From IMG/VR virus record IMGVR_UViG_3300001450_000305, positions 1 through 24,046 of that record: DNA of 24,046 nucleotides; one strand, 5' to 3'. Of the stretch, positions 3,833-5,899 are shown one piece after another. The notes under the pieces were generated by a model, which had not been told where the DNA came from, ran no database searches, and worked only from the letters and a program-made list of their open reading frames with translations. Positions within the stretch are counted from its first letter, which is position 1. Each line of letters starts with the position of its first letter. A program made the position numbers and the translations under genes. This DNA comes from a virus.

Positions 3833-4168
3833 TCAGTTGCGAATTGGCCAATTAATCTTAGCTTCCCGCTCAAAACGTTTAATAGCAACATCAAGCTTGG
3901 ATTTCTGCTTATAAGTCATGGGATCATCAAGACCATACTTCTTGATGTATTCCATATATCTTTTTTCGTTCACTAAAGCATCAGTGAATCTTTCAATCTC
4001 AATTTTATTTCCACGCACACGAACAGGAATCCGGCGACCCTTAAACATCTTAGATAAAAGGTACTGTATCCAAGCCGCAAAAACATAAAGAATATTTTCG
4101 TTCAATTCACCACGCCTTGCAGCGCCGAGATCAAACACCATCTCCTTTAATTCGTCTTCTGAGAGCAT
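3833..4168 (-). CDS. Small unknown protein between tail chaperone and tape measure
   Basis: A 111-residue protein with no family I recognise. It is charged and probably mainly helical: an acidic start (MLSEDELKEMVFDLGAARRG), an aromatic/hydrophobic helix LYVFAAWIQYLLSKMFKGRR, a possible strand pair RIPVRVRGNKIEIERF, and a basic C-terminal half. There is no signal peptide. The hydrophobic helix is short and flanked by basic residues, so it more likely packs in a soluble protein than crosses a membrane. It has its own good ribosome-binding site (GGAGGAA) and ends 18 bases before the tape measure start. A role in tape-measure folding or tail-tube initiation is inferred from place only. Confidence 0.75.
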   Translation of the reverse strand: MLSEDELKEMVFDLGAARRGELNENILYVFAAWIQYLLSKMFKGRRIPVRVRGNKIEIERFTDALVNEKRYMEYIKKYGLDDPMTYKQKSKLDVAIKRFEREAKINWPIRN

Positions 4169-4231: not shown

Positions 4232-4435
4232 TTATCTGCTACCTGATTTACTACGAGAAAGAGCCGACTCATGCTGCTTCACTTCTTCTTCTTTTTGTTT
4301 TGATAACCTTCTCAAGAACCAGCGGCGAAGAACAACAGGTAAATTATAAACTTCGAAAAAGCTCCAGCTTCCATAATATTTTAATTGAAAAAATTCTTCG
4401 TGTATCGCTTCTTTATATTCGTCACTTAGGCCAAA
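4232..4435 (-). CDS. +1-frame extension of the tail chaperone, probably made by frameshifting
   Basis: The frame one base forward of the gp26-like gene is open across the overlap and to a TAA at 4232, adding 66 residues after the FF encoded in the T run: GLSDEYKEAIHEEFFQLKYY, then SWSFFEVYNLPVVLRRWFLR, then a Lys/Glu-rich end. It reads like a real helical protein domain. I find no credible independent start: there is no ATG in this frame. The only start that would keep the domain is a TTG at 4495 without a Shine-Dalgarno sequence, deep inside the upstream coding region, while a GTG falls too late and would cut the domain. The simplest reading is a 348-residue fusion, like lambda GT. The start given here is the first codon that could belong to the extension. 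A miscounted homopolymer in the assembly would instead make this the ordinary C-terminus of a single gene. Confidence 0.65.
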   Translation of the reverse strand, partial: FGLSDEYKEAIHEEFFQLKYYGSWSFFEVYNLPVVLRRWFLRRLSKQKEEEVKQHESALSRSKSGSR

Positions 4436-5279
4436 AAAAGTCCGCAGTGAGCGGCACCTCCATGTCAGCAGAATAGCCGCAAGAGTTGCACTCAAAAGTT
4501 TGCGATAAATCGATGTTTGGAACTATTTTTCCATAAAAGGTTCTCAAGAATCGAGAATCTCTAGCTGGCATAGTTTGTATAAAGGACTTAAGATTGAAGA
4601 CATCCTGACTTCCATTAACAGAAACGATAAAAGCCTGAAATTGATCCGTCAGGGTAGTGTCCCCGATCTTTCTTCTCGCCTTTCTCTCTGCCTCTTTGTA
4701 AAGCTTCATCTCGTCAGCGCCGTTCAAGAGACGGCACTCAACCACCGCCTTACTTAGGGGCAATGTCACAGAAAATGTGTTATACCCCGTCTGCTCTCCG
4801 TCATATAATTCTAGAGCAGACTGTGTCTCTGAAACTTTGACATCTTCAAGACTAAAGGAGAAGTCCTCCGCTGTATCACAGGACGGACAAGTAACCTTTG
4901 TCTCATACTCAGGCCCATATCCAGTAATGCGGGCTGCTACGATCAGGGCGTTCTTGTCGCCAACAAGAAAAGTATCTAGATTGAGGTCCTTATCAACAAG
5001 AAGGTTCTTGAGAAGACGGTCGATAACGACACCTTCTTTTATAAGAGATCTAGAAGTAAGTATGTCTTCTTCTTTCGCTGTCATATAGCGAATTTCTACT
5101 GACTCCTTGTTATGGAGAGGATGACTCTCAGCATAAAACTTACCCCGGCTTGGTAAGCTGACAAACTCAGTAGGAACCGACCAGTTAAAGGTGGCTCCTT
5201 CTGAGTTGTTTGTTGTCGCAATTGGGGCGGGAGTCTCGTCCACCACAGGGGCGGATGCCCGGTCTTCATTTCTGCTCAT
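4422..5279 (-). CDS. gp26-like baseplate hub / tail assembly chaperone with zinc site
   Basis: This 285-residue protein resembles the T4 gp26 family of baseplate-hub assembly proteins. Recognisable elements are FNWSVPTEFVSLPSRGKFYA (about 31-50), the segment EIRYMTAKEEDILTSRSLIK (about 62-81), and two Cys pairs, CPSC at 131-134 and CNSC at 264-267, which together can form one zinc site. The N-terminal 30 residues are polar and probably disordered. It lies directly after the tail tube gene and before the tape measure, the position where other long-tailed phages encode tail assembly chaperones. Its last codons, GAC TTT TTT TGG CCT AAG TGA, contain a run of seven T, and the +1 frame there continues for 66 residues. 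ATG 5279 follows AAGGG. Whether it is a virion component or only a chaperone cannot be decided from sequence. Confidence 0.75.
   Translation of the reverse strand: MSRNEDRASAPVVDETPAPIATTNNSEGATFNWSVPTEFVSLPSRGKFYAESHPLHNKESVEIRYMTAKEEDILTSRSLIKEGVVIDRLLKNLLVDKDLNLDTFLVGDKNALIVAARITGYGPEYETKVTCPSCDTAEDFSFSLEDVKVSETQSALELYDGEQTGYNTFSVTLPLSKAVVECRLLNGADEMKLYKEAERKARRKIGDTTLTDQFQAFIVSVNGSQDVFNLKSFIQTMPARDSRFLRTFYGKIVPNIDLSQTFECNSCGYSADMEVPLTADFFWPK
4433..4439 (-). other. T7 slippery run, probable +1 frameshift or transcriptional slippage site
   Basis: On the coding strand the end of the gp26-like gene reads GAC TTT TTT TGG CCT AAG TGA. A Phe tRNA on the second TTT can move one base forward and pair perfectly with another TTT. 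The zero-frame codon waiting in the A site is TGG, read by a single tRNA, which could promote the slip; the next codon is then GGC in the extension frame. Loss of one U by RNA polymerase slippage on the seven-base run would give the same product. A minus-one shift would instead meet TAA two codons later, so it is not productive. Confidence 0.55.
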
Positions 5280-5344: not shown

Positions 5345-5899
5345 TTATCTGATTGCAGGTGGACCAGCAGTTCGGCCCTTAGTCCTAAGCTCTGCCCAGT
5401 CGAATGCTAGTTCTAAACTTATTTCATTCATTTCGTCAGAGGTATAATCAAGCTGACCACCAAAATCGATGCTAACCATAAATGGATTTATTAGGGTCCA
5501 AGTCTCAATTGGATCCCCCTCATCATCAAGTTGTTGAATCTGAATTCTGCCGATGGCCTCTGAGGCTTTTTTCTTACTGAGGCTTGATTTAGCACCCTGT
5601 TGGGTAGTGGGATACCTATAGCCCGAAACGCCCAAACGTTGCAAAAACTCATAAGCCAGATCTGGATCAACCGGATCGATTAATGTTAGGGTGATATTGT
5701 CCCAAGTAACACGACCGGGATACTTAAAAGTATGATCCAAGTAAGAGTGCTCTACCACACTAACATTTGCCTTTGGCTTTGTAGCGGTCTTAACGGTCCA
5801 GATAGGGATAGCCTCCCCTTGACCGTTTAGTTGTACCGCAAAACGATAACGTCGTTTAGGGTCGGTATTAACGTTTGACCAGAAAAGATCAGCAGCCAT
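5345..5899 (-). CDS. Tail tube protein, gp19-like
   Basis: The protein has 184 residues, slightly longer than T4 gp19 (163), and shows the tube fold pattern: an early FAVQLNGQGEAIPIWTVKTA strand pair, the long loop KANVSVVEHSYLDHTFKYPG, then VTWDNITLTLIDPVDPDLAY and a C-terminal INPFMVSIDFGGQLDYTSDE, NEISLELAFDWAEL. The strand IPIWTVKTATKP followed by PGRVTWDNITLTLID is typical of tube subunits in contractile tails. It would polymerise as hexameric rings inside the sheath. It lies directly downstream of the sheath gene, the conserved 18-19 order, with a clear AGGAG site before ATG 5899. Confidence 0.9.
   Translation of the reverse strand: MAADLFWSNVNTDPKRRYRFAVQLNGQGEAIPIWTVKTATKPKANVSVVEHSYLDHTFKYPGRVTWDNITLTLIDPVDPDLAYEFLQRLGVSGYRYPTTQQGAKSSLSKKKASEAIGRIQIQQLDDEGDPIETWTLINPFMVSIDFGGQLDYTSDEMNEISLELAFDWAELRTKGRTAGPPAIR

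Follow-up and report, generated by a model that had tools for sequence, protein, structure and literature searches.

A +1-frame extension conserved behind a gp26-type tail assembly chaperone gene in T4-related phages and its probable expression by programmed frameshifting

Genes and reading frames at the chaperone locus

The late genes of the 24,046-base viral record analysed here (the whole stretch is called the window) lie on the minus strand, and the tail genes follow in the order sheath, tube (PF06841), gp26-like gene, one small gene and a 725-aa tape measure candidate (Table 1), which agrees with the gene order given in the preliminary description of this DNA. A family search with the small gene gave no match. 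The tape measure candidate resembles ORFs located 3' of the chaperone gene in 29 relatives, and the records of Flavobacterium phage immuto and Bacillus phage SP-15 label its counterpart as tape measure. The surroundings recur among the relatives, with a tail tube gene 5' of the chaperone gene in 120 of 131 and a long ORF 3' of it in 93 of 97. Only one PF12322-type gene was found in the 24-kb record, a fragment, and no separate full-length pair of short and long genes as in T4.

Table 1. Position of the features of the chaperone locus in the window
Feature	Position	Strand	Basis or remark
Tail tube gene, upstream	5345..5899	-	PF06841 Phage_T4_gp19, E 3e-7
Short form, TAC-N (gp26-like, lambda G analogue; 285 aa, C-terminus ...TADFFWPK, then stop)	4422..5279	-	PF12322, PHROG 150
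Candidate small hairpin CCGC-TCACT-GCGG, just 5' of the run	4442..4454	-	Weak lead
C immediately 5' of the run	4440..4440	-	Prevents the -1 heptamer U UUU UUU
Slippery run U7	4433..4439	-	Retained in almost every one of the 135 non-redundant loci
+1-frame extension, TAC-C (T-domain analogue), 66 codons	4235..4432	-	HMM matches, AlphaFold
Small gene in the interval between chaperone and tape measure	3833..4168	-	Ribosome-binding site GGAGGA
Probable tape measure gene, 725 aa	1637..3814	-	Position, length, relatives

The gp26-like gene (5279-4422) ends in GCG GAC TTT TTT TGG CCT AAG TGA, the 0-frame stop falling at 4424-4422, and past the run of seven T (4439-4433) the +1 frame reads GGC CTA AGT GAC GAA ... 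and stays open for 66 codons (4432-4235) up to a stop at 4234-4232; gene end, run and open frame were all found as first described. In the +1 frame 5' of the slip, the window offers a single start codon, a TTG at 4495, which has no ribosome-binding site.

The short form matches PF12322 (T4_baseplate) over residues 57-283 and profile positions 12-219 of 219 (E 1.1e-12, 48.6 bits, cut-off 24.5) and also PHROG 150, baseplate hub (E 5e-16). Both T4 gp26 and T4 gp51 are members of PF12322, and since profile comparison of these two proteins with the locus gave short weak alignments only, the Pfam membership serves as the bridge between them. The TAC-N and TAC-C halves were folded apart for structure prediction. 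The AlphaFold model of TAC-N (pLDDT 88) had a strong structural match to gp26-type proteins of other phages, and its top match among 350,542 PDB chains was the HK97 tail assembly chaperone 2ob9 (E 0.59, probability 0.41), which appears to be the right kind of protein, yet is not significant alone. The preliminary description had also called the protein zinc-binding; the zinc-site cysteines are missing in several relatives, and zinc is therefore not essential to the chaperone role.

TAC-C is predicted by AlphaFold to form three helices (pLDDT 89), and a search of this fold against the PDB returned no significant match. Its alignment to residues 211-248 of T4 gp51 is weak (i-Evalue 0.015, hhalign probability 0.2%). 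There is also a sub-threshold match of the extension to Pfam DUF6760 (PF20546, E 0.021), which may connect it with small proteins found in other contractile systems. Between related loci, codon positions 1, 2 and 3 of the +1 frame take 26, 16 and 58% of the differences in the extension, a substitution pattern characteristic of purifying selection on a protein. Annotation has missed TAC-C in Mel-JY01, immuto, SP-15 and LIS04, where it is absent or appears as a hypothetical protein or a shortened ORF.

Conservation of the frames, the site and its direction

Relatives were collected from scans of viral contigs and genome contigs together with a phage genome search, and the extension profile was run in all three forward frames of the 196 loci in which the end of the gene is complete. 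The best profile match lay in the +1 frame in 186 loci, in the -1 frame in 8 and in no frame in 2, counts to be read with regard to a profile trained on +1-frame sequences, which very different -1 extensions may escape; the two loci with no match were L033, cut by the contig edge, and L100, whose -1 extension is too distant. Removal of sequences at least 85% alike left 138 +1 loci, 135 of them with a clear site, and the site finder, which demanded YTT, left out L094 (TTT TTT AGT), L095 (TTT CTA TTC) and L099 (TTT TTC GCT). The 12-mers at the 135 sites were TTT TTT TGG CCT (106), TTT CTT TGG CCT (11), TTT TTT TTC CCT (6), TTC TTT TGG CCT (5) and others (7), and the variants mostly retain the +1-slippery YTT_Y, chiefly as CTT T and TTC TTT T. 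The 0-frame stop comes 3-10 codons after the site in every one of the 135 loci. The break is present as well in the complete genomes of cultured Flavobacterium phages (four records). Alignment with related phages, which had been proposed as a check on the locus, found both frames and the slippery run conserved, and the claim of a +1 programmed frameshift gains good comparative support from the 186 loci in +1 and from the identical 12-mer at 106 sites; the recurrence of the +1 arrangement in these genomes is far beyond chance.

Information content reaches 1.5-2.0 bits at all positions of the 12-mer, third positions included, and is mostly 0.05-0.2 at the adjacent upstream third positions. At codon 2, Phe is encoded by TTT in 124 of 124 cases (background 0.79, P 2e-13) and Leu by CTT in 11 of 11 (background 0.22, P 5e-8), where the P values ignore shared ancestry and are indicative only, because pairs of loci are not independent. 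The CCT at the fourth codon, which accounts for 131 of 133 Pro codons, follows from the need of the +1 frame for Gly-Leu. Directly 5' of the run, T was observed in 4 of the 135 sites as against 67 expected from the amino acids, and in 2 of 118 among the TTTTTT sites. A U before the run would create the -1 heptamer U UUU UUU, and we read its avoidance, a feature of the aligned sites, as probable selection for the direction of the shift. The window has no -1 slippery heptamer: its run is preceded by C, and the extension occupies the +1 frame. Relatives with a -1 geometry (L093, L098, L100) do carry T 5' of the run, and the sites of this geometry read AGT TTT TTC in S-RIM8, GAT TTT TTC in Bakedbeans and AGT TTT TTT in RAS14. 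Both frames, the site, the gene order and the constraint on direction are thus conserved.

A tree was built on 49 short-form proteins, in which +1 is the rule throughout the window's clade and the group of SP-15, LIS04 and GXN1; the branching order is uncertain at depth, where branches are long. L076, with its extension in -1/+2, and L193 and L199 are placed within the +1 clade. In the IMG/VR contigs L076 and L077 the gene ends in TTC TTC TGG CCT TCC CGG TAG, the extension is in -1 (or +2) and the +1 slip site is lost. In L193 and L199 the extension is longer and starts at an ATG of its own, a few bases past the short-gene stop, which looks like a loss of the frameshift. A separate gene with its own ATG had been named in the preliminary description as evidence against a frameshift, and it was found in these two loci; because they are nested in the +1 clade, we read them as later changes, by which the frameshift in the window is not disproved. 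In Pseudomonas phage Cygsa01, the extension is apparently a separate gene with a TAATG overlap. The cyanophage sisters S-RIM8 (L098) and S-SCSM1 (L099) differ, with the extension in -1 in the former and +1 in the latter behind nearly the same TTT TTC end, which reflects either a real switch of direction or an indel in one record. A very distant gp26-like gene of Stenotrophomonas phage RAS14 (L093, about 4800-4860 of the locus) carries AGT TTT TTT ATC, and its -1 frame holds a stretch resembling TAC-C; the probable -1 site of this jumbo phage is U UUU UUU, and its annotation shows no fusion.

Signals around the site and other routes to the extension

Among the 135 loci, no universal stimulator was found around the slip site. 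A Shine-Dalgarno stimulator was rejected: SD-like tetramers are enriched within 25 nt upstream (60 of 135 loci versus 17 in a control stretch), but they lie off the RF2 spacing, and no SD sequence was found three bases upstream of the slip codon. The use of GGG three codons ahead of the run depends on lineage. Positions 4442-4461 of the window hold the Shine-Dalgarno-like GGAGGTG together with CCGC...GCGG just 5' of the slip site, and the Glu in this region is GAG in 35 of 36 relatives (background 0.23). The CCGC-TCACT-GCGG stem occurs in 9 loci with one compensatory pair type, and register-shift controls gave 0-6. The region from -48 to -7 shows synonymous constraint and is predicted to fold more stably than its synonymous randomisations (mean z -1.37, controls about -0.2), although part of this stability could stem from G+C choice at third positions; hairpins in it differ by lineage, and a single shared upstream hairpin was not found. 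A general downstream stimulatory structure was likewise rejected, as there was no signal across loci. A hairpin GGGYCT-loop-AGGCCC with some compensatory changes, located 6-25 bases past the slip codon and enclosing the 0-frame stop, was seen only in the L040-L071 sub-lineage and a small number of other loci; it is not present in the window. UGG, the single Trp codon, is used 8.5 times per 1000 codons in the genes of the window and is not especially rare.

A run of seven T is a classic site of length errors, and the rival explanation raised in the preliminary description was that the assembly had miscounted it and that the gene is truly one continuous frame. The identical break, however, is found in about 190 separately assembled loci, including the four records of cultured Flavobacterium phages, and it persists at TTTCTTT sites, which have no long run. 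A break conserved in well over a hundred relatives is therefore not a sequencing or assembly error, and the chance that it is one here seems to us negligible. RNA polymerase slippage on the T-run would give mRNAs with 6 U and continuous translation, and the T7 run on which it could act is present at 109 of the 135 sites; against this, the frames are unchanged at the TTTCTTTGG (11) and TTCTTTTGG (5) sites, which lack a long run. Because TTTCTTT and TTCTTTT interrupt the T-run, transcript slippage on a homopolymer is not a shared feature, and this route is highly improbable.

The extension could instead be translated on its own as a small gene, from a weak or coupled start and with no fusion, as is apparently the case in Cygsa01, L193 and L199, and the in-frame TTG of the window might be taken for such a start. 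Yet 50 of the 135 +1 loci have no ATG, GTG or TTG from the preceding in-frame stop to 8 codons beyond the slip, and a separate gene leaves both the conserved run and its 5' base unexplained, so we consider this very unlikely. Slippage by -2, as in phage Mu, leads to the same downstream frame as +1, and on U7 the Phe-tRNA can re-pair at -2 too; at the TTC TTT TGG sites, however, our reasoning on pairing would place it on UCU with a mismatch at the middle base, whereas +1 gives UUU, and we think it very unlikely that -2 is the route used.

Proposed mechanism and relation to known systems

The explanation that we prefer, and regard as very probable from the comparison of sequences, is a programmed +1 frameshift by which a slip of the P-site Phe-tRNA yields a minor long form, TAC-NC, from the gp26-like TAC-N, the two forms doing a job like that of lambda G and GT. 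The majority of ribosomes would translate TAC-N and terminate at its stop. In the U7 run, Phe codon 1 occupies 4439-4437, the probable P-site slip codon 2 4436-4434, and the skipped U 4433. A minority of ribosomes, with the Phe-tRNA in the P site on UUU and the 0-frame UGG (4433-4431) in the A site, would slip one base forward on U7, the Phe-tRNA would re-pair with UUU, and decoding would resume at GGC into the 66-codon TAC-C to give TAC-NC with the junction ...DFF-GLSDEYK.... At the CTT sites the Leu-tRNA on CUU would likewise move to UUU, as in RF2. Slippage at codon 1 also fits most sites and is likelier in L095. We infer the exact slip codon, a useful rate of slippage and the assembly role: on the lambda G/GT model, the short form would cover the tape measure protein, and recruitment of tail tube subunits would fall to TAC-NC. 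The G/GT-like role has good comparative support, as PF12322 includes the published T4 chaperone pair and the C-terminal domain lies in an overlapping frame.

Previous work assigned the tail assembly chaperone role in T4 to gp26 and gp51 (Vladimirov, Gautam and Davidson 2022, as described in PMC10885494 and PMC12846349). The same study is reported in PMC10885494 to have found that some T4-like phages carry a short gene together with a long fused one, and is cited in PMC12846349 for poly-T -1 signals in T4-like phages. The chaperone role that the preliminary description assigned to gp26-type proteins of T4-like phages therefore holds, but it is not new, having been published in 2022 (PMC10885494, PMC12846349). 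The locus is like T4 gp26/gp51 in its PF12322 membership and in its short form and long form with an extra C-terminal domain, but T4 has two separate genes and the locus one gene with a frameshift. Frameshifting is reportedly said, in the abstract of the 2022 study, to be conserved in several T4-like groups. With lambda gpG/gpGT and other -1 chaperones, the locus shares the place before the tape measure gene, the overlap of two frames and a presumed minor long form, whereas the lambda type shifts by -1 on a heptamer and the locus would shift by +1 at YUU_U while UGG occupies the A site; sequence homology of the locus to gpG was not detected. The gp26-type loci of the cyanophage S-RIM8 and Vibrio phage Bakedbeans also have the extension after a Phe-Phe end, but in the -1 frame at U UUU UUC. 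RF2 (prfB) undergoes a +1 P-site slip on CUU_U, which is possible likewise in the 11 TTT CTT TGG loci, but it has a stop codon in the A site and an SD three bases upstream, where the locus has UGG and no such SD. PSA and the archaeal myovirus HSTV-2, whose tail chaperone is very likely made by a +1 shift (review PMC5009743), resemble the locus in that a phage gene for a structural protein or tail chaperone is shifted in the +1 direction; PSA, however, slips on proline CCC, the genes are unrelated and HSTV-2 belongs to a different phage group.

A frameshifted gp26-type chaperone is probably already known. What appears to be new, with the 2022 study judged through the papers that cite it, is the +1 shift at a sense codon, the depth of its conservation, the constraint that sets its direction and the switch of relatives to -1 or to separate genes. 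More tentatively, and as a possibility that we rate somewhat below an even chance, YUU_U(GG) may be a distinct class of sense-codon +1 signal that drives a two-form chaperone across a very large, uncharacterised T4-related clade, in which the base 5' of the run would set the direction (U for -1, as in cyanophages and the jumbo phage RAS14, and non-U for +1), so that small changes may flip the direction while the two-form output is kept.

To our knowledge, bacteria and their phages seldom use a programmed +1 shift at a sense codon. The family described here comprises more than 100 natural versions of one such site in a large and mostly uncultured group of T4-related phages, whose relatives seem to reach the same two-protein output by a -1 shift, a separate start or two genes. 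In practical terms, annotators overlook the second half of the chaperone, and the family makes the selection of slippage direction testable.
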